From assembly GCA_018818835.1 (NCBI GenBank), contig JAHIRD010000067.1:1-35674 (forward strand): 35,674 nt of DNA, written 5' to 3'. Each line of letters starts with the position of its first letter. Within the stretch, counting starts at the first letter, position 1. The DNA is from Pseudomonadota bacterium (GTDB taxonomy: Bacteria; Desulfobacterota; Desulfobacteria; Desulfobacterales; Desulfolunaceae). The notes under the pieces were generated by a model. It searched no databases, was not told the origin of the DNA, and worked only from the letters and a program-made list of their open reading frames with translations. The translations under genes and the position numbers were made by a program. Below, in pieces: positions 13,506-21,394 of this stretch.

Positions 13506-13892
13506 TTAACGTTTGGAGAACTGGAACCGTGCTCGGGCACCTTTCTGACCGTATTTCTTACGCTCTTTCACTCGGGAATCACGGGTGATGAACCCTGCTT
13601 TTTTGAGTACGGATCGGAGTTCAGGATCAACCTGAAGAAGAGCTTTTGTAATGCCGTGTCTCACAGCACCAGCCTGTCCGATAAGACCGCCGCCTTTTAC
13701 TGACACTGTGATATCATACGATTCAATGCCACCGATAAGTGTCAGGGGTTCGGTCAAAATAAGTCGTGCAGATGCACTGAAGTAGTCTTCAACAGGTTTG
13801 TTGTTTACGACAATTTTGCCGTTACCCGGAGTCAGCCAGGTTCGAGCTACTCCATTTTTTCGTTTACCGGTTGCGTAATAAGTGTTTTCCAT
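13506..13892 (-). CDS. rpsI: 30S ribosomal protein S9
   Basis: A 128-residue uS9 of normal length. The N-terminus '[19 protein letters not shown]', the '[19 protein letters not shown]' loop and the conserved C-terminal tail ending RARFQFSKR, which reaches the P-site tRNA, are all intact. Start ATG 13892 has GAGGAAA upstream. It is 36 bp downstream of rplM on the same strand, the usual bacterial pair. Confidence 0.97.
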
Positions 13893-13928
13893 GTCTAAAC
13901 ATTTCCTCGGTATATTTTTTCGAACAGA

Positions 13929-14369
13929 TTATAATTCAATTTTAAGAACATCCGGATTTTGAGCCGCATGGGGATGTTCGGAGCCGGAATAAACATGAAG
14001 TTTTTTGTTCAGATCTCGTCCCAGCCTGTTTTTTGGAAGCATACCTCTTACTGCAAAACGGAGCACGTCTTCGGGTCGTTTTTTCAAAAGATCACCGGCA
14101 GATGTACTGGTCAGTCCGCCCATGTAACCGCTGTGTCTGTGATAAAATTTATCTTTCAGCTTATTTCCGGTCAAAACAACCTTATCGGCATTGATGACAA
14201 CAATCCAGTCACCCGTATCAGTATGGGGAGTGTACATGGGATTGAATTTACCACGGATTCTGGCAGCTATCATTGATGCAAGACGGCCCATAACCTGGCC
14301 TTCGGCATCGACAACATACCATTTTTCCTTATTATCTGAACGTTTTGCGCTATATGTATACTTTTTCAC
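13929..14369 (-). CDS. rplM: 50S ribosomal protein L13
   Basis: A 146-residue uL13, with 'WYVVDAEGQVMGRLAS', 'NADKVVLTGNKLKDK' and 'RHSGYMGG', and the 'AVRGMLPKNRLGR' signature. GTG at 14369 is taken as the start because AGGAG lies seven bases before it and the product then begins MKKYTYSAKR as in homologues. First gene of rplM-rpsI, expressed from the promoter at 14410-14438. Confidence 0.97.
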   Translation of the reverse strand: MKKYTYSAKRSDNKEKWYVVDAEGQVMGRLASMIAARIRGKFNPMYTPHTDTGDWIVVINADKVVLTGNKLKDKFYHRHSGYMGGLTSTSAGDLLKKRPEDVLRFAVRGMLPKNRLGRDLNKKLHVYSGSEHPHAAQNPDVLKIEL

Positions 14370-14409
14370 GTTTATACTCCTGATCAAGTTTCAAAAAAAT
14401 AACTTGAAT

Positions 14410-14592: not shown

Positions 14593-14976
14593 CTAAAGTT
14601 CAATGGCCTTGTCTTTCAACTTATTCAGATCCGATGCCTTCTGGGGCTGCCGCGAGGTCTTGCATGAGACTTCTGCATTGAGAATTCCGCCGCTTTCCAC
14701 GATCAAATCCCGGCACACCACTTTACCGGAGCAAGAACCTGTGGACAGTATCACCAGCTCTTCCGTCGCTTCGATTTCACCTTCAAAGGTACCACCGATG
14801 GTGATTCCCGTAACCTTTGCATCACAGTAGACAGAACCTTCTTCTGCGATCACGACAATTTCACCCCTGATTTCACCTTTAACCGTCCCCTTGATCACCA
14901 GCCGACCCTTGCTTGAAATATTCCCGTCAACCACAAGGTCACGATCAATGATTGACAGGTTTTTCGATTTGCTCAT
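14593..14976 (-). CDS. Bactofilin (CcmA-like cytoskeletal protein)
   Basis: A 127-residue bactofilin (DUF583). The middle (about residues 18-105) is a right-handed beta-helix made of short repeats with regular glycines and hydrophobics (LVIKGTVKGEIRGEIVVIAE, 'VTGITIGGTFEGEIEATEEL', 'GKVVCRDLIVESGGILNAEV'), flanked by disordered ends. Bactofilins polymerise without nucleotide at the membrane and place peptidoglycan hydrolases; CcmA of Helicobacter pylori does so in setting helical shape. The gene overlaps the end of the Csd4-like carboxypeptidase by 32 bp, so both are co-translated, and a YkuD protein follows the same unit upstream. This context suggests a shape or curvature role. Last gene of the long minus-strand run. 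Confidence 0.9.
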   Translation of the reverse strand: MSKSKNLSIIDRDLVVDGNISSKGRLVIKGTVKGEIRGEIVVIAEEGSVYCDAKVTGITIGGTFEGEIEATEELVILSTGSCSGKVVCRDLIVESGGILNAEVSCKTSRQPQKASDLNKLKDKAIEL

Positions 14977-16771
14977 CCCGATCCATCTCCCGAGTGTAAT
15001 TAATTGAAACTGAACCTATTAGAAGCTCATCCCGCAGCACCTCGATCCGGTGGGGGCTGGAGAAAAATTGATTGTTCAACATATCATGCCCGACAACAAT
15101 AGGCGTATTGATTTTAAGGGGAAAGGCCCCGGACGCCTGACTTGAAATTCTGATTTCAAGATTAGAAATCTTCTCCACATTGCTTATGACATCGACCAGT
15201 GTCAGCGTCCTCCCCAGTTTCTTAAGGTCACCAAAAAGGATTGAGCCGCCATTTTCAAAACAGGTGATGGGTTGACCCTCTGTTTTAATCAGCATATAAT
15301 TCAACACGGGCGTATCCAGTTCAACGAATAATTTACCAATTATAGCATTTTCTCCATGAGTTACAACCTGATATTTCAAGCCTTTCCGGTCCAGGGAATA
15401 ATTGGGCCAAAGATCTTTGGCCGTGTTGATGCGGCAGCCCCTGTCCTCCCCGGTATTTTCTGATTCCGGTCCCACATAGCCCTTGAAATTCACCTGGAGA
15501 CGGGAGGGGTCAAAGGCGTCTGAAATGACATCCTCCAACTCAAAGATATCCCCTTTGATCATTCTGATCGTACTGTAGTTTTCCATGATCAGTTCCTTGC
15601 CGTTCACCTTCACGCGGTACAGAAGAAATGATCCACCCTTACCTTTTTTATCACTGACCGTAATACAACCGGCATCTTTACCTCCGTTTTCATCCAGAGC
15701 CAGATAGACACTTCCGCACGGGTAAAAATCCTTTCGAACGGTAATCCGGGTTGAGCGATCAATGGCAAGGGGCTTTCTAAAATCGTTCACCGATCCAAAA
15801 CCCAGGATATCTGCGCTGAGTCCCCTCTCGAAATTTGCCTCGATATGAGTGATGCTGACCACATCATTGGGCCGGATGGTCAGGATCTGGTCGCACCGCA
15901 CCACAATGGGCTGGGTGTCGTTCACGGTTATTACCAGATATTTCAAATCCGGTTCTTCAAGATTCACAGACGGAAGCTCGGGCACCACTCCAAATTCATC
16001 CATAAATGCATTGATCGCATGGATATGATGACGAATCTTCATCTCAAGGGGGAGGGATTTACTTGACTCCACCCCGAATGCCGGAATTCCGCATTTGGTC
16101 AGGGCATAATAGGTCGCTGATTTCCGCTGGGCCTTATGAATCGTATGTTCGGAAAAGGTGTTGTGGTTGTTGAAATGAAAATGATATTCATTATTTTCAA
16201 TATCCCTGTTGATCTTGTCAACCACACGACGTCCGATGTCTCCCAGTTCAATGACCAGCCCATCCTTTTCCCGGCGCTCACAATCTGCAATCACAGACTG
16301 GCCAAATTTTTTTGGATTCCGGTCATCATCGACCCACACCTCCGAATAAAACCCTGAACCGTCATGGAGATTCAACAGGCAGTCGCTCTCTGCAATCAGG
16401 TCCTTTAAAATGGCCACCACCTTGGTTTCGTAATTCGGCTTACTGTCTTCGGCGAATTTCCGGTTCATGTCCTCATTCACCTGCCTCTGATTGAGAACAA
16501 TGGAATGAAAATTCGCCCGGGGAACGACAATCAGGTTGCCTTTGGACAAACTCATATCCGCATAGATATCCGCCGACAAAAAACCTCCGGGCTCATCCCC
16601 CTGTATCCCGCCGATCAATAGAATGGTCTTTCCGTCTTCCTTACCATAGACCCTGTATACGTTGAGTTCATAGTCCGTCCCCTCAAAAAAAACCATATGG
16701 GTCCGTTTCGCCTCTGCGATTCCTGAAAAAAACAGGGCCAGGAACAAAACCACCCCAAAGCTAATCCTCAT
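14945..16771 (-). CDS. Csd4-like zinc D,L-carboxypeptidase (M99/M14 family) of the periplasm
   Basis: A 608-residue exported peptidase. Start ATG 16771 is chosen because it begins the signal peptide MRISFGVVLFLALFFSGIAEA; it overlaps the previous gene by 11 bp. Residues 55-60 are GIQGDE, giving Q57-x-x-E60 as zinc ligands, with H136 in NLHDGSGF as third ligand and E235 (GVESS) as a likely catalytic glutamate. In H. pylori Csd4 the zinc is held by Gln, Glu and His in just this way, a rare variant of the normal His. Csd4 trims peptidoglycan tripeptides to dipeptides. The C-terminal 350 residues are beta-rich and would be the extra M99-type domains. Neighbours (bactofilin, YkuD protein) support peptidoglycan remodelling for cell shape. 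Function here is inferred from these motifs. Confidence 0.8.
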   Translation of the reverse strand: MRISFGVVLFLALFFSGIAEAKRTHMVFFEGTDYELNVYRVYGKEDGKTILLIGGIQGDEPGGFLSADIYADMSLSKGNLIVVPRANFHSIVLNQRQVNEDMNRKFAEDSKPNYETKVVAILKDLIAESDCLLNLHDGSGFYSEVWVDDDRNPKKFGQSVIADCERREKDGLVIELGDIGRRVVDKINRDIENNEYHFHFNNHNTFSEHTIHKAQRKSATYYALTKCGIPAFGVESSKSLPLEMKIRHHIHAINAFMDEFGVVPELPSVNLEEPDLKYLVITVNDTQPIVVRCDQILTIRPNDVVSITHIEANFERGLSADILGFGSVNDFRKPLAIDRSTRITVRKDFYPCGSVYLALDENGGKDAGCITVSDKKGKGGSFLLYRVKVNGKELIMENYSTIRMIKGDIFELEDVISDAFDPSRLQVNFKGYVGPESENTGEDRGCRINTAKDLWPNYSLDRKGLKYQVVTHGENAIIGKLFVELDTPVLNYMLIKTEGQPITCFENGGSILFGDLKKLGRTLTLVDVISNVEKISNLEIRISSQASGAFPLKINTPIVVGHDMLNNQFFSSPHRIEVLRDELLIGSVSINYTREMDRDEQIEKPVNH

Positions 16772-17804
16772 TGGGTTTTTCACCGTCACTGGCTCCTTCA
16801 GGGGAATCACTTCCCGGGTCAGTGGCTGGATTGTCACCAACCGGTATGGCACGGTCTGTTGTCACTACGGTTACGCCTTCTTTAGCCATGGGTTTTGGCT
16901 CACTGCCCAACGGTAGGCCCGGTTTTCCATGAGACTCATTGGGAGGAACGGAAACGGACGTCTTATCATTATTTTCTGCGGAGCCCTTATCTGGCGGATC
17001 GGCCTTGGGTTTTTTAATCACATCCAGATCCACGTCAAAGGTGTTTTCATAGATCTTGTCACCGTCCGTAGAAAATATATACACATCCATTTTTTTATAA
17101 TGGTCATCGGGAAAAGGATTGTTAAATTTGAATTTCACACTTTTAAAATGATTGATTGAAAAAAACTGCCCCATACTCGGCATGGAAGGGATACCGTCCT
17201 TTAGGGTTACCGGCGGCATGGTCAACCAGTCCTGAGAATTATTCGAATCCGGCCTGAGGATCACGAACACCCGGCCTGCAATAGCATCAAGTTTGCACGT
17301 ATTCTTAACGATAAACCGAATCCTGGTTTCGCTGTCCCCTTCATTTTTGGAAAACGTCAGGTCCTTCACGTCCGCTGTCATTTTTTCAGCCTTCTTGGTC
17401 TCTTTCTTGGGGGTCGGCTTGGGGGCATCGTCTGCCTTCTTTTCAGCCTTTACTTTGGGCTCAGCGGTTTCCAGTTTTTTCTTGGGAATAAATAACTGGG
17501 CTTGCAGATGTTCCTTTTCATCCTGAAGGTGTTTTCTTTCATTTTCCACCGAGACAAGGCTCACTCTGAGTTCCTTGTTTTGATCCCTTGATTTAAAATA
17601 CATCATGGAAAAAAAGGCCGAAAAACCCAGTGAGAGAGCAAGTACAACAACCACGGTAATCACAAATTCCCTGTATCTCTTGATGGCAATGGTTTTTCCA
17701 TCCTCGCTCACAAAAAGCATCTGCCATTTACCCGTACGTTTGAAGGGGTTGGGAACCGAATACTTTTTCAGTTCTTTTTCCATATCTCTTGAAGAATCTT
17801 CCAT
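16761..17804 (-). CDS. Single-pass membrane protein of the shape module, unknown family
   Basis: A 347-residue protein with a 46-residue basic cytoplasmic N-terminus (KKYSVPNPFKRTGKWQ), one transmembrane helix (about 47-69, VITVVVVLALSLGFSAFF), a coiled coil (about 73-107), a Lys/Pro-rich linker, a beta-rich periplasmic domain (about 148-262, including RIRFIVKNTCKLDAIAGRVF), and an acidic, Pro/Ser-rich disordered tail. I do not recognise the family. Start ATG has AGGAGG at seven bases. It overlaps the YkuD gene by 37 bp and the Csd4-like gene by 11 bp. With one end in the cytoplasm where bactofilin polymerises and the other in the periplasm with the two hydrolases, it is placed to bridge them, as Csd5/Csd7 do in Helicobacter; this is inference. 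Confidence 0.7.
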   Translation of the reverse strand: MEDSSRDMEKELKKYSVPNPFKRTGKWQMLFVSEDGKTIAIKRYREFVITVVVVLALSLGFSAFFSMMYFKSRDQNKELRVSLVSVENERKHLQDEKEHLQAQLFIPKKKLETAEPKVKAEKKADDAPKPTPKKETKKAEKMTADVKDLTFSKNEGDSETRIRFIVKNTCKLDAIAGRVFVILRPDSNNSQDWLTMPPVTLKDGIPSMPSMGQFFSINHFKSVKFKFNNPFPDDHYKKMDVYIFSTDGDKIYENTFDVDLDVIKKPKADPPDKGSAENNDKTSVSVPPNESHGKPGLPLGSEPKPMAKEGVTVVTTDRAIPVGDNPATDPGSDSPEGASDGEKPNED

Positions 17805-19108
17805 GTTTGTTCCTCCTTCACCAGTACAAGAGTTTTTATCCCGGAAGCTGTGTAGCCACTTGATTTATAGTTCTGTCTGAAATCTGCACGAACCTGATTT
17901 TGTTCAATGGTCAGAGTCGGTTCGGAAATCGTGATTGTAATATAATCATAGACCGTGCTCAGATAACGCTTCCGGTCCAGCCAGGCTTTCTTGTCCATGT
18001 CACCGGACTGAAATCCCTGGGCATAGCACGCCCCGTAGTGTTCGATATCCCCTTTGCCCCATGCCTCTAACCAGACATCAATGGTTTGTCTGACCTCAGT
18101 GAGGACCCTTGCCGCACGGCCTTTTCGCTCCTGTTCAAGAATTTGATCTGCTGCCCATAAAATAGGCTGACGTTTCTTCATGTCCGGCTCACGGCTTGCC
18201 CCTGCAGAATGAATGACTTTATGGGTATCCCCGATAATTTTATATTCCTCTGATTTCAGGGAAATGTAGAGCTTTCGTATTCCGGCATCATGGCCATAAT
18301 CTCCCCGGTTGAGTTTCAACCTGAAAATGACCACCAACACATCCCCATCTCTGTAAATTCCACGGTTATCAATCTCAACTGAAAAGGGCCCTGTTTCGGC
18401 CTTTGCCTTATCCCGAATCGAGCGCCAGTCATTCCACCACGCCATGTGGGGGAGATATTCCGATGCATAAAAAGAAAGATAGACATGGTAATCCCCATCA
18501 CTGATGCTGTCTTTCCATTTGGCCAAGAATGAGTCAACAGCCTCGGATATCACGGCCTGATCATTGTTTTCCGAAAAGTCTATTTTTTCAGAAATAATAA
18601 TGGGGGTAAAATCAAGGGATATGTCCTTTTCCACACCGACAAGCTGACCGTTTTCAAGGGCAACACATCCGTTGGAATCCATGGGCTTTAAATCCCTGTC
18701 TGTCCCATGCAACCAGATTGCACTCCCGTTACGCCCCCCGACACAGTCAAGAAGATTGGGATAATCCGTGGGCAAGGCCATGACCCCGTAAACAGGCGCC
18801 AGATCTTTTTCAAGATACTTTCCAACAAAAAAATAGACCCCTTCCGGGGTTTTTTGATCACCGGCTATCTGTTTTCGCCCCTGAACTTTACCGGTGGAGC
18901 ACGTTAAGGTGCGTTCAAGAACCACCTCCATATCAGACCGGTAAAGGTAAAGGGTCTGACTTGATTTTTCTACCACAATGACCGTGCTTCCGTTGCCCGG
19001 CATGGAAACAATGGATGAGGGCAACATCGCAGAGTATACCGAACGGGCCTCCATGGTATATGACATGATCAGGCCGCCTAAGACAACACATAACAAAAAC
19101 CGTTTCAA
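17768..19108 (-). CDS. YkuD L,D-transpeptidase/carboxypeptidase with two NTF2-like regions (Csd6-like)
   Basis: A 446-residue exported protein. The start is TTG 19108, with AAGGAG five bases upstream, giving the signal peptide MKRFLLCVVLGGLIMSYTMEA. The YkuD domain (about 40-175) has H134 in 'WLHGTDRD' and the nucleophile C148 in 'DSNGCV'. Two alpha/beta regions follow, about 185-300 ('VDSFLAKWKDSISDGDYHVY') and 345-446 ('IDVWLEAWGKGDIEHYGACY'), each starting with an NTF2-like helix. Csd6 of H. pylori joins a YkuD domain to one such domain and acts as an L,D-carboxypeptidase. Here the NTF2-like part looks doubled. It likely removes or cross-links peptidoglycan stem peptides; which of these is not decided by sequence. 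Co-transcribed with the membrane protein, Csd4-like protein and bactofilin. Confidence 0.85.
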   Translation of the reverse strand: MKRFLLCVVLGGLIMSYTMEARSVYSAMLPSSIVSMPGNGSTVIVVEKSSQTLYLYRSDMEVVLERTLTCSTGKVQGRKQIAGDQKTPEGVYFFVGKYLEKDLAPVYGVMALPTDYPNLLDCVGGRNGSAIWLHGTDRDLKPMDSNGCVALENGQLVGVEKDISLDFTPIIISEKIDFSENNDQAVISEAVDSFLAKWKDSISDGDYHVYLSFYASEYLPHMAWWNDWRSIRDKAKAETGPFSVEIDNRGIYRDGDVLVVIFRLKLNRGDYGHDAGIRKLYISLKSEEYKIIGDTHKVIHSAGASREPDMKKRQPILWAADQILEQERKGRAARVLTEVRQTIDVWLEAWGKGDIEHYGACYAQGFQSGDMDKKAWLDRKRYLSTVYDYITITISEPTLTIEQNQVRADFRQNYKSSGYTASGIKTLVLVKEEQTWKILQEIWKKN

Positions 19109-19133: not shown

Positions 19134-20174
19134 TTAAAAAAAGGTTCTCTGAACCTTGAATCCCATGTGACGGTAAGCATCTTCAGATGCTTTTCGACCT
19201 GAAGAGGTGCGCGTCAGCATTCCTATTTTTAAAAGATAGGGCTCCACCACATCGACCAGGGTGTCGGTTTCTTCCTGGAGGGTTGCGGCAATGGCCTCAA
19301 TCCCCACCGGCCCACCATGGTAGTACTCAATGATGGTTCGCAAAAATTGTCTATCCAGATTTGTCAGCCCTTTTTCATCAACCCCTTCAAGGGCCAGGGC
19401 AGATTTTACGGTGTCACATGTCAATGAGCCATCGGACCGAACCTGGGCATAATCCCTAACCCGTTTAATCAGCCTGTTGACGATCCGGGGTGTGCCCCGG
19501 GAACGACGGGCAAGCTCATAGGCCCCTTCGTCGTTGATGGACACCCCCAGAAGATCTGCGGAACGTCTCGTGATGGTCACCAGATCTTCGATGGAATAAA
19601 AATCAAGACTTCGAAAGATCCCGAAACGGTCCCGCAAGGGTGCTGAAAGCAGGCCCACCCGGGTGGTGGCACCCACCAGGACAAACTGTTTCAAACGAAA
19701 GCGATGGCTCCGGGCATGCATACCCTTGTCAAACACAAAATCAATGGAAAAATCCTCCATGGCCGGATACAAGAATTCTTCAACGGTTTTGGGCAAGCGA
19801 TGAATCTCATCAATAAAAAGAATGTCCCCCTGCCCCAGGTGGGTGAGTACCCCGATCAGATCGCCGCCTTTTTCAAGGGCGGGGCCCGAGGTAATGGTCA
19901 GCTCCCCCCCCATCTCATTGGCGATGATATGGGCAAGGGTTGTTTTGCCCAGACCCGGAGGCCCATGAAACAGAACATGCTCTATGGGCTCCCCCCTCAT
20001 TTTGGCCGCCTGAATGGCAATTTTGAGCGTCTCGACAGCTTCTTTCTGGCCCACGTAATCATCAAATTTATCGGGCCTCAGGGATACGATATCCTGGCTG
20101 TCGTCCATGGGGAGGTCTTTTTTGGTCAAAAGCCCTTGCTTTTCCGAAGAAAATGTCAGAACATCATCGCCCAT
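19134..20174 (-). CDS. ruvB: Holliday junction branch migration helicase RuvB
   Basis: A 346-residue AAA+ motor. Walker A GPPGLGKT is at residues 71-78, Walker B DEIH at 122-125, sensor '[18 protein letters not shown]', and a C-terminal winged helix ends 'AYRHMGF'. As a hexamer on RuvA it drives branch migration of Holliday junctions. The gene follows ruvA by 30 bp and precedes the Csd6-like gene by 25 bp, so the shape genes may be read on from the ruv promoter. The N-terminal 20 residues are longer than in E. coli; the internal M23 is an alternative start. Confidence 0.97.
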
Positions 20175-20204
20175 GGCTATGCCCCTCGCGCCGTATCAAA
20201 CATT

Positions 20205-20825
20205 CTAAAGATTCTTTTCACCGCGGTATACCTCATCGAACAGGTCTTCGGGTGTTCCAATCGATGGATTTCGTTCAAAGGCCTCGGCGATCATCGTCCT
20301 GGCATCAGGAGCCCTGTGACCCAGTTGAGTGACCAGAACATCCAGAACCATATCGGTAAAATCCCCAAGCTGAACCGGTTTTTCAATGGATTCGCCCGGA
20401 TGAATCAGGGCAAATTTACCCATTTTCCCCTCAAGGGTTGCGATGATCTTCTGGGCCGTCCGTTTACCAATGCCATCCAGTTTTTGGAGGGTAATAACAT
20501 CCTTATTTTCAATGGCCCTGGCAATTTCACGCGCCGGAAGCGTCATGGCCTTGACCGCCTTCATGGGGCCAATGGCTTCCACACTGATGAAGTATTGAAA
20601 AAATTCTTTTTCCGCTTCCAGATTAAAACCGATGAGGGTGGGCTTGGGCTGGCGCTCTGTCTGGTGATAATAGATATAAAGTGAGGTCGTCTCGTCGTCT
20701 CCTCGTGAGCCCATGGTTTCCAGCACATTTGCAGGAAGAAGAATTTCATAACCCACATGATTGACAAGGAGGATAATTCGGTCCTCTTCCTTTTTAATGA
20801 TTTTCCCCTCAAGGTAGGCAATCAT
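20205..20825 (-). CDS. ruvA: Holliday junction DNA-binding protein RuvA
   Basis: A 206-residue protein with the OB-fold N-domain (MIAYLEGKIIKKEEDRIILL, 'VNHVGYEILLPA', 'GFNLEAEKEFF'), helix-hairpin-helix motifs ('LQKLDGIGKRTAQKIIATL') and a C-terminal domain III ('SIGTPEDLFDEVYRG') which binds RuvB. It tetramerises on four-way junctions. Normal length. In order ruvC-ruvA-ruvB; the ribosome site is a modest GGGGAT. Confidence 0.95.
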   Translation of the reverse strand: MIAYLEGKIIKKEEDRIILLVNHVGYEILLPANVLETMGSRGDDETTSLYIYYHQTERQPKPTLIGFNLEAEKEFFQYFISVEAIGPMKAVKAMTLPAREIARAIENKDVITLQKLDGIGKRTAQKIIATLEGKMGKFALIHPGESIEKPVQLGDFTDMVLDVLVTQLGHRAPDARTMIAEAFERNPSIGTPEDLFDEVYRGEKNL

Positions 20826-20905
20826 ATGGCCATATCCCCAGTCTCCCCTAATGATGCATTCGTAAAAACAATGCCAGATGGCTATGGAAAAAGGCCATCA
20901 GGTAT

Positions 20906-21379
20906 TTAATATCTGAAAAGCCCAATCAAAGCCAGAGACAATGCATCGGACGCATGATAAGGCCGGATGGGCTTTTCATGGTGAAGATAACGGCGAACCG
21001 CTTGTTCAAGCTGTTCCTTTCCTGCGTTTCCATTACCTGAAAGTATTTTCTTGGATTCACGTACAGGAACTTCAACGACGGATATACCGGAGTGAGCAGC
21101 AGCCAGAAGCACAACCCCACTTACTTTACCCAGAAGAATACCTGATTTGGGGTAGCGTTCCAAGGAAAAAACATCTTCGACCACCATAAGATCCGGTTTC
21201 TGATCGTTCAGAATACCCATAATCTTGTCGTAAATATGGGCAAGTCGAATGGACAAGGTATCTGTTTTTTGTGTGTCGATGCTCCCGAAAGAATAGCTAT
21301 CGATTTTCATTCCCATCCCCGAAACAAGCCCGATCCCCGTCCCGGCAAGCCCCGGATCAATACCAATAACCCTTTTCAT
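20906..21379 (-). CDS. ruvC: Crossover junction endonuclease RuvC
   Basis: A 157-residue resolvase with catalytic residues D8 (GIDPG), E69 (VVEDVF), H142 and D145 (HASDALSLAL). The third acid is a histidine, as in Thermus RuvC, whereas E. coli has aspartate. It cuts Holliday junctions handed on by RuvAB. ATG 21379 gives the normal start MKRVIGIDPGL; in-frame GTG 21394 and ATG 21388 upstream, the first directly touching the cpoB stop, are possible. The 80-bp gap to ruvA holds no gene. No yebC-like gene is beside it. Confidence 0.94.
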   Translation of the reverse strand: MKRVIGIDPGLAGTGIGLVSGMGMKIDSYSFGSIDTQKTDTLSIRLAHIYDKIMGILNDQKPDLMVVEDVFSLERYPKSGILLGKVSGVVLLAAAHSGISVVEVPVRESKKILSGNGNAGKEQLEQAVRRYLHHEKPIRPYHASDALSLALIGLFRY

Positions 21380-21394
21380 TACCGCCATGGCCAC

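Follow-up and report, generated by a model that had tools for sequence, protein, structure and literature searches.

The steering of a periplasmic cell wall enzyme by a bactofilin is understood for the M23 endopeptidase LmdC, found in Hyphomonas and Rhodospirillum. LmdC is a bitopic protein whose cytoplasmic region binds the bactofilin BacA and whose beta-hairpin is critical for recruitment in R. rubrum; in 226 species a bactofilin gene has an M23 gene as its neighbour (PMC10945521). A bactofilin associated with a wall hydrolase through a bitopic link is a known kind of system, and for the L,D- and D,L-carboxypeptidases which shape Helicobacter and Campylobacter no description of such a steering link was found in the open-licence literature. 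The present study concerns a stretch of 35,674 nucleotides from a Desulfobacterota genome (contig JAHIRD010000067.1 of assembly GCA_018818835.1, hereafter the window), in which four minus-strand open reading frames (ORFs), running from 19108 down to 14593, encode in this order a YkuD-NTF2 protein, a membrane protein here named the bridge, an M99 carboxypeptidase and a bactofilin. On balance, the locus is read as a module that spans the membrane and trims peptidoglycan on a bactofilin scaffold, two enzymes which act in succession on stem peptides being tethered by a non-enzymatic adaptor.

Each of the closest described systems shares part of this design. In Helicobacter pylori, the CcmA-Csd5/Csd7-Csd1 system, together with Csd4 and Csd6, likewise brings members of these two carboxypeptidase families together with a bactofilin and with membrane proteins that are not enzymes. 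The shape genes of that species are reportedly scattered, judging by their HP locus numbers, and M23 enzymes such as Csd1 fall outside the operon described here. A further difference is that Csd5 has an SH3 domain (PMC9507126), whereas no SH3 family was matched at E 0.01 in any of 64 bridge members. Campylobacter jejuni possesses homologues of both enzymes, Pgp1 and Pgp2, which are here found in one operon, and the bactofilin 1104, next to which the gene numbering puts the M23 protein 1105; the accessible part of that report mentions no bridge-like protein (PMC10151779). In the same species Pgp2 makes the substrate of Pgp1 (PMC10151779), so the two enzymes of the operon fit as consecutive steps. 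Among solved structures, Bd1075 of Bdellovibrio bacteriovorus (7o21) is the one nearest in sequence to the YkuD protein; it bends the Bdellovibrio cell, needs its NTF2 domain for localisation and curvature, and is devoid of the N-terminal dimerisation domain of Csd6 and Pgp2 (PMC8938487). The bd1075 gene is described as monocistronic and its product as having one NTF2 domain, while the YkuD gene of the window belongs to an operon and its product has a second, weaker NTF2-like copy.

The likeness to LmdC-BacA concerns architecture. In both cases the bactofilin gene adjoins the gene of a bitopic protein with a short beta-hairpin, cytoplasmic in LmdC, one membrane span and a coiled coil (PMC10945521), and the hairpin of the bridge resembles in profile that of LmdC-like M23 proteins from relatives. 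The bridge differs in having an Ig-like domain in place of the M23 domain, and the enzymes of the operon are two separate carboxypeptidases. This comparison supports a bridge which works like LmdC, with no membership in the LmdC-type M23 peptidases, and the likely function of the bridge, that of an adaptor to bactofilin built like LmdC, is the best-supported mechanistic point of the study; it was missing from an earlier reading of the window made without database searches (the sequence-only reading). A non-enzymatic adaptor encoded with two carboxypeptidases in one operon appears to be new; no report of the four-gene operon or of the bridge family was found among the titles and abstract openings listed by the searches of the open-licence literature.

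The YkuD gene (17768..19108, minus strand, 446 amino acids (aa)) encodes an exported protein of the Csd6/Pgp2/Bd1075 type, and the bridge or adaptor gene (16761..17804, minus strand, 347 aa) starts 37 nucleotides (nt) within it; the M99 gene (14945..16771, minus strand, 608 aa, exported, Csd4/Pgp1 type) and the bactofilin gene (14593..14976, minus strand, 127 aa) follow. The successive genes overlap by 37, 11 and 32 bp, as the sequence-only reading had it and the ORF coordinates confirm, provided that the M99 start is taken at the ATG at 16771. The longest M99 ORF starts at 16852 and has 635 aa; the sequence following the ATG reads, by eye, as a signal peptide, and this start yields the 608 residues given in the sequence-only reading. 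The YkuD/bridge overlap measures exactly 37 nt in 23 of 33 pairs from a set of relatives (window included) and in 37 of 62 pairs from a second, named set which has some contigs in common with the first, and in the window (17768-17804) the bridge gene begins with a start codon that overlaps the one for a conserved Trp in the NTF2 domain of the YkuD protein. Taken together, the conserved overlap and the position of the start codon point to translational coupling. The four genes probably form one unit.

The set of relatives comprises 96 related genomes, own genome included, 66 of which are of high quality. The bridge was found in 63 of them by protein search and in 64 by profile at E 1e-8, and M99 in 30. 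Stretches around bridge or M99 matches were annotated with profiles built from the window proteins; 68 were examined (the window and L063-L129) and 65 were counted, since two (L127 and L128) contain no bridge match and the weak profile match in a third (L129, 744 aa) was rejected as a bridge, being a TPR/MerR protein by Pfam. Considering YkuD upstream, M99 downstream and bactofilin downstream within 2.6 kb, all three accompany the bridge in 17 loci (window included), bactofilin alone in 16, YkuD and bactofilin in 13, M99 and bactofilin in 2, YkuD alone in 1, YkuD and M99 in 1, and none in 15. Loci L080 and L108, both lacking a bactofilin, end downstream at contig ends. The named set consists of the best 80 of at least 538 relatives matched by the M99 alignment, and is biased to close relatives of the window; its titles include metagenome-assembled genomes (MAGs) of Desulfobacterales, Desulfobacula, Desulfotignum and Syntrophus, as well as Desulfocarbo indianensis. 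In 53 of these loci the flanks of M99 were long enough (2.7 kb on the upstream side, 1.2 kb on the downstream side), the other 27 being dropped, and all four genes are in order in 39 of the 53. The remainder have no YkuD (4), no bactofilin within the distances used (3), neither bridge nor bactofilin (4), the bactofilin upstream (2) or no bridge (1).

As the same order recurs in many relatives, it is not due to chance, and the module spans more than one group, reaching Desulfobacterales, Syntrophus and Desulfarculaceae. The sequence-only reading had proposed to look for the order in relatives, where it is indeed conserved, and had called the module self-contained, which is too strong a term for a gene set that is reduced to bridge and bactofilin in 16 of 65 loci, is without M99 next to YkuD and bactofilin in 13, and has none of the three partners adjacent to the bridge in 15. 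Because one or both enzymes are missing from many bridge loci, YkuD and M99 look like optional cargo.

The bridge itself has no Pfam or NCBIfam match above cut-off. Its AlphaFold model (mean pLDDT 79.2, pTM 0.47) consists of a beta-hairpin at residues 29-41 (strands 29-32 and 38-41), a helix at 44-105 which forms the membrane span and then a coiled coil, an Ig-like beta-sandwich at 144-263 and a disordered tail. A hydropathy scan placed one span near the N-terminus, and no second, in 131 of 135 bridge proteins (both sets, some shared), in agreement with the single-pass membrane protein described from the sequence. In loci L204 and L207 the YkuD-NTF2 protein carries the Ig-like domain of the bridge as a C-terminal fusion; as these loci are sister branches of the M99 tree, the fusion may be one event. 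The hairpin would be cytoplasmic and the Ig-like domain periplasmic, a topology based on the analogy with LmdC and on the fusion of the Ig-like domain to YkuD-NTF2, which should be periplasmic. Sequence comparison with solved structures gave nothing better than E 0.012, the weak matches being mainly to chains that are coiled coils or helical, BRIL fusions for example, and fold comparison gave, among the matches listed, a generic Ig-like sandwich, mostly of GH2 enzymes (Z up to 10.8 over 104 residues), which points to no function. No M23 family is present among the Pfam matches of the 64 members. DUF6776 (PF20567) was considered as the bridge family and rejected: it matched 1 of 64 members at E 0.0088, the window protein not being that match, and in genome searches it was absent from the own genome, silent in the controls and weakly matched in 1 of 198 genomes of a phylum-wide sample, with none above cut-off. 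One bridge (L106:7533-8699), with no adjacent bactofilin, ends in a SPOR domain (5e-9), a domain of peptidoglycan-binding type.

The distribution of the bridge follows that of bactofilins. A bactofilin was detected in 78 of the 96 genomes. The bridge accompanies it in 64 and is missing from the other 14, and the 18 genomes devoid of a bactofilin are all devoid of the bridge too (Fisher p 3e-11, kinship uncorrected); for the 66 high-quality genomes the counts with both, the bridge alone, a bactofilin alone and neither are 48, 0, 7 and 11 (Fisher p 3e-8, kinship uncorrected). Since all 64 bridge genomes bear a bactofilin, the 15 lone-bridge loci lie in genomes with a bactofilin elsewhere. In the phylum sample of 198 genomes many weak bridge matches span the coiled coil only, and the tally of 63 of 198 was not used as a bridge frequency.

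The N-termini of 64 bridge proteins were then compared, profile against profile, with those of M23 proteins from relatives, a set for which the seed was the M23 protein of the own genome and whose likeness to LmdC is one of architecture only; the gene of the seed protein lies on a contig without a bactofilin. The whole N-terminus scored 44.6 with 18 rows, two rows of another M23 type having been dropped by eye, and 40.4 with all 20; controls whose hairpin columns were permuted 200 times reached 31.4 on average and 42.5 at most. The hairpin alone scored 16.4, compared with a mean of 6.1 and a maximum of 14.4 in permuted controls (n=200) and a maximum of 13.3 in 285 real, partly overlapping windows of 25 residues from the other three operon families. 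The similarity is above controls but small, and convergence of the two hairpins might also account for it. It is quite possible, if somewhat short of an even chance, that the bridge founds a family of bactofilin adaptors of LmdC design, in which the docking hairpin was kept, the M23 domain was swapped for an Ig-like docking domain, and exchangeable YkuD and M99 enzymes were recruited in trans. If so, bactofilin shape modules would be plug-in platforms, and a direct physical route would lead from the cytoplasmic filament to both stem-peptide trimming steps.

The YkuD protein of the window matches YkuD (PF03734, 2e-15; approximately residues 42-156) and the NTF2-like Cds6_C (PF24125, 5e-22; approximately 339-441), with a second, weaker NTF2-like copy at approximately 192-293 (8e-5, below cut-off); among the aligned proteins, window included, PF03734 is present in 34 of 34 and PF24125 in 31 of 34. 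Catalytic residues were read from alignment columns in a deduplicated set of the relatives and named samples (89 rows), as strict motif patterns missed variants (G.QGDEPG was found in 73 of 99 M99 proteins and the YkuD pattern in 85 of 98). All 89 rows retain the catalytic His134 and Cys148, and the residue two positions after the cysteine (Cys+2) is Ala in 44, Val in 41, Thr in 4 and Arg in none. In most L,D-transpeptidases this position is occupied by Arg, in Csd6 and Pgp2 by Ala and in Bd1075 by Val (PMC8938487). The protein carries the signature of an L,D-carboxypeptidase, with a predicted activity from tetra- to tripeptide.

It is improbable that the YkuD protein is instead a DpaA/YafK-like amidase or an L,D-transpeptidase, in which case the two enzymes would not act in series. 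An NCBIfam match to LdtF/DpaA exists and is weak (5.6e-4, 19.1 bits against a cut-off of 365), and YafK-like amidases share Ala at Cys+2 (PMC8938487), so that the pattern at this position does not exclude an amidase; the lack of Arg speaks against a transpeptidase and leaves the amidase untouched. What argues for a carboxypeptidase is the presence of the Csd6-type NTF2 domain and the ranking of the sequence matches in the Protein Data Bank (PDB), in which Bd1075 (7o21, 8.8e-36) comes best, followed by Csd6 (4xzz, 4e-19) and then Pgp2.

The M99 protein of the window matches Peptidase_M99 (PF17033) at 6e-41 (141 bits against a cut-off of 27), a family also matched by 20 of 20 aligned proteins, window included, and matches Csd4 by sequence (4q6m, 4e-31). 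Csd4 is also the best PDB match of the structure model by fold (4wcn, 1.4e-23, against 3e-8 for the next family), the alignment covering 462-488 columns but with an rmsd of about 16 A over that span. Csd4/Pgp1 enzymes have three domains, among them a beta-barrel and an Ig-like domain at the C-terminus; in the window protein the C-terminal M99_C domain is below cut-off (15.6 of 27 bits), and 8 of the 20 aligned proteins match it at E 0.01. In the numbering of the 635-aa ORF, the metal ligands Gln84 and Glu87 are conserved in 88 of 88 covering rows and His163 in 89 of 89, these being the equivalents of Gln46, Glu49 and His128 of Csd4 (motif from PMC4220969), and the active-site residues Arg123 and Arg131, with the same spacing as Arg86 and Arg94 of Csd4, in 89 of 89. 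The enzyme is predicted to be a D,L-carboxypeptidase which converts tri- into dipeptides. The Csd6-like, Csd4-like and bactofilin assignments of the sequence-only reading are borne out by the Pfam and PDB matches, as are the NTF2-like regions it saw in the YkuD protein, one strongly and one below cut-off; the GIQGDE motif it reported in the 608-residue carboxypeptidase is present, and Csd4 ranks first among the fold matches of the model of that protein.

The M99 enzyme of the module seems bound to its operon. In the relatives sample, module-type M99 above the Pfam cut-off adjoins YkuD or the bridge in 22 of 22 loci and the bridge in 20 (window included); a weak match below cut-off with no module gene beside it (L140, genome G093) is outside this count. 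A tree of 95 M99 proteins, built by a quick method, separates nine orphans (L131-L139) from the other 86 with a branch support of 100. The orphans match PF17033 far better (1e-78 to 1e-87), both of the two scanned for the C-terminal Pfam domain have it above cut-off, and no YkuD, bridge or bactofilin match was found beside them in the stretches taken. Given its own side of the tree, the orphans without module genes and the adjacency in all 22 loci, the module-type M99 forms a separate lineage tied to the operon; the orphans, Csd4-proper enzymes of the same family, form a separate clade away from module genes. In the phylum sample M99 is matched in 42 of 198 genomes, in 40 of them above cut-off; in seven of the 42 the match to the Pfam model is much closer (1e-60 or better), and none of these has a bridge match adjoining; a bridge match adjoins M99 in 23 of the other 35 genomes (compared by eye). 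The orphans come from the same order as the host of the window and look as if they had been acquired separately.

The bactofilin of the window matches PF04519 at 5e-20 (71.9 bits against a cut-off of 27.9) and Bactofilin A in the PDB (2n3d, 1e-6). Module bactofilins have Cys88 in 101 of 106 rows and Cys82 in 85 of 106. A second bactofilin of the own genome (L130:7947-11583, contig C178) lies directly downstream of genes for a PBP2-like penicillin-binding transpeptidase and an FtsW/RodA-family protein and, by ORF reading, upstream of ATP-synthase genes; judged by reading, it is without the conserved cysteines of the module bactofilin.

In the mechanism proposed here, bactofilin would polymerise at the inner membrane, on its cytoplasmic side, and bind the N-terminal beta-hairpin of the bridge. 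The bridge would span the membrane once and, through its coiled coil and Ig-like domain, hold two soluble enzymes in the periplasm or mark where they act. Of these, YkuD-NTF2 would take D-Ala off tetrapeptides as an L,D-carboxypeptidase, and the M99 enzyme would then take meso-diaminopimelate (mDAP) off the resulting tripeptides as a D,L-carboxypeptidase. Such local trimming of stem peptides would remove cross-linking sites and alter local wall growth, so that the cell bends or is locally reshaped.

A number of results weigh against this mechanism. As regards docking, the likeness of the hairpins is visible only by profile-profile comparison, a plain HMM search of the bridge hairpin against 19 ORFs of M23 loci having given a best E of 0.1, in the membrane span. 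Moreover, two short strands, with ends chosen by eye, offer little ground for homology, and the comparison was made with proteins that are LmdC-like by architecture. The charge rule is indecisive on the topology of the bridge, the N-terminal side being more positive in 87 of 135 proteins and not in that of the window, and the Fisher tests of co-occurrence with bactofilins ignore phylogeny. As regards the enzymes, YkuD and M99 are both missing from the side of the bridge in 31 of 65 loci, so that the bridge must have other partners too, and 15 of 65 have none of the three other genes adjacent, 2 of these 15 being truncated downstream by the contig end. Furthermore, Csd6 of H. pylori shows no apparent interaction with CcmA, Csd5 or Csd7 in the accessible part of the report (PMC9507126).

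This last result is also what would be expected if the four were co-regulated envelope genes without a tether, the carboxypeptidases acting diffusely on the sacculus, as Csd6 of H. pylori appears to do, while bridge and bactofilin do a separate job, and the recurrence of bridge and bactofilin without the enzymes in 16 of 65 loci agrees with it. Such an arrangement is nonetheless unlikely in view of the fusion of the Ig-like domain of the bridge to a YkuD enzyme in two loci, possibly one event, of the overlap of the YkuD gene with that of the bridge, mostly by exactly 37 nt, and of the association of YkuD beside the bridge with an adjacent bactofilin (30 of 32 loci with YkuD against 18 of 33 without; p 5e-4, kinship uncorrected).

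Granted a tethered and bactofilin-scaffolded module, its output has still to be considered. Curvature is plausible by analogy, as in the published work accessible here Csd4, Csd6/Pgp2, Bd1075 and CcmA all influence how curved or helical the cell is. Among named genera with curved cells, no usable link to the module was found. An output other than lateral curvature, such as wall trimming at a pole, an appendage, the division site or an envelope junction, is a serious contender, albeit with clearly less than an even chance. Bactofilins elsewhere are described as serving stalks, budding, chromosome organisation and motility, the host of the window is known from contigs alone, and the module reaches groups as diverse as Desulfobacterales, Syntrophus and Desulfarculaceae; the curvature functions of the homologues stand on the other side.

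By uniting the two carboxypeptidases with a bactofilin and a bitopic protein whose hairpin is LmdC-like, the operon makes the link from filament to carboxypeptidase directly testable. For a family that is widespread (64 of 96 sampled genomes) yet has no Pfam model it hints at a function, and it raises the possibility that sulfate-reducing and syntrophic bacteria share wall chemistry with helical pathogens, the parts of the module being otherwise known, scattered, from corkscrew-shaped gut bacteria.

The module is flanked by conserved neighbours which lie outside it, ruvB-ruvA-ruvC (19134..21394, minus strand) directly upstream and rplM and rpsI (13506..14387, minus strand) downstream, giving the transcription order ruvC, ruvA, ruvB, YkuD, bridge, M99, bactofilin, rplM, rpsI. 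A tol-pal-like block (MotA/ExbB, ExbD, TonB_2, TolB, OmpA and a TPR/YfiO protein) is also found upstream. The sequence-only reading had placed the module after ruv and tol genes in a Desulfobacterota-type host, and both statements hold. Most loci with conserved order sit between ruvCAB and rplM-rpsI, and ruvB is upstream in 48 of the 56 bridge loci having at least 3.5 kb of upstream sequence. This stable block raises the question of whether the gene order was merely inherited with the whole ruv-to-rplM block and has no functional meaning. Such an explanation is very improbable, because five more distant loci (L171, L177, L184, L214 and L219) keep the four-gene order without a ruvB or rplM match in the stretch examined, the enzymes are missing from many blocks while the flanks remain, and the bridge tracks the presence of bactofilin genome-wide. 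In several relatives a gene for a SAM hydroxide adenosyltransferase lies between ruvB and the module (one was checked with Pfam, the others were assigned by position, length and reading); in the window there is no space for such a gene.

Three further loci depart from the ordinary layout. In a MAG of Olavius algarvensis Delta 4 (L097:8732-10918), M99 and bactofilin read as one ORF of 728 aa. A true fusion was rejected, as there is no obvious membrane span between the two parts and the bactofilin would be put in the periplasm; the junction contains a Shine-Dalgarno-like stretch and an in-frame GTG overlapping an out-of-frame stop, and an ordinary gene overlap with one indel, or an assembly error, is likelier. 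The fusion was not used as evidence, and the locus was still counted as having both M99 and bactofilin. In L072 (6407-7941) M99 is split into two ORFs, with the other three genes present, and may be broken or misassembled. Finally, in L064 (2742-5922) ruvA and part of ruvB are tandemly doubled upstream of the module, either by duplication or by an error of assembly.

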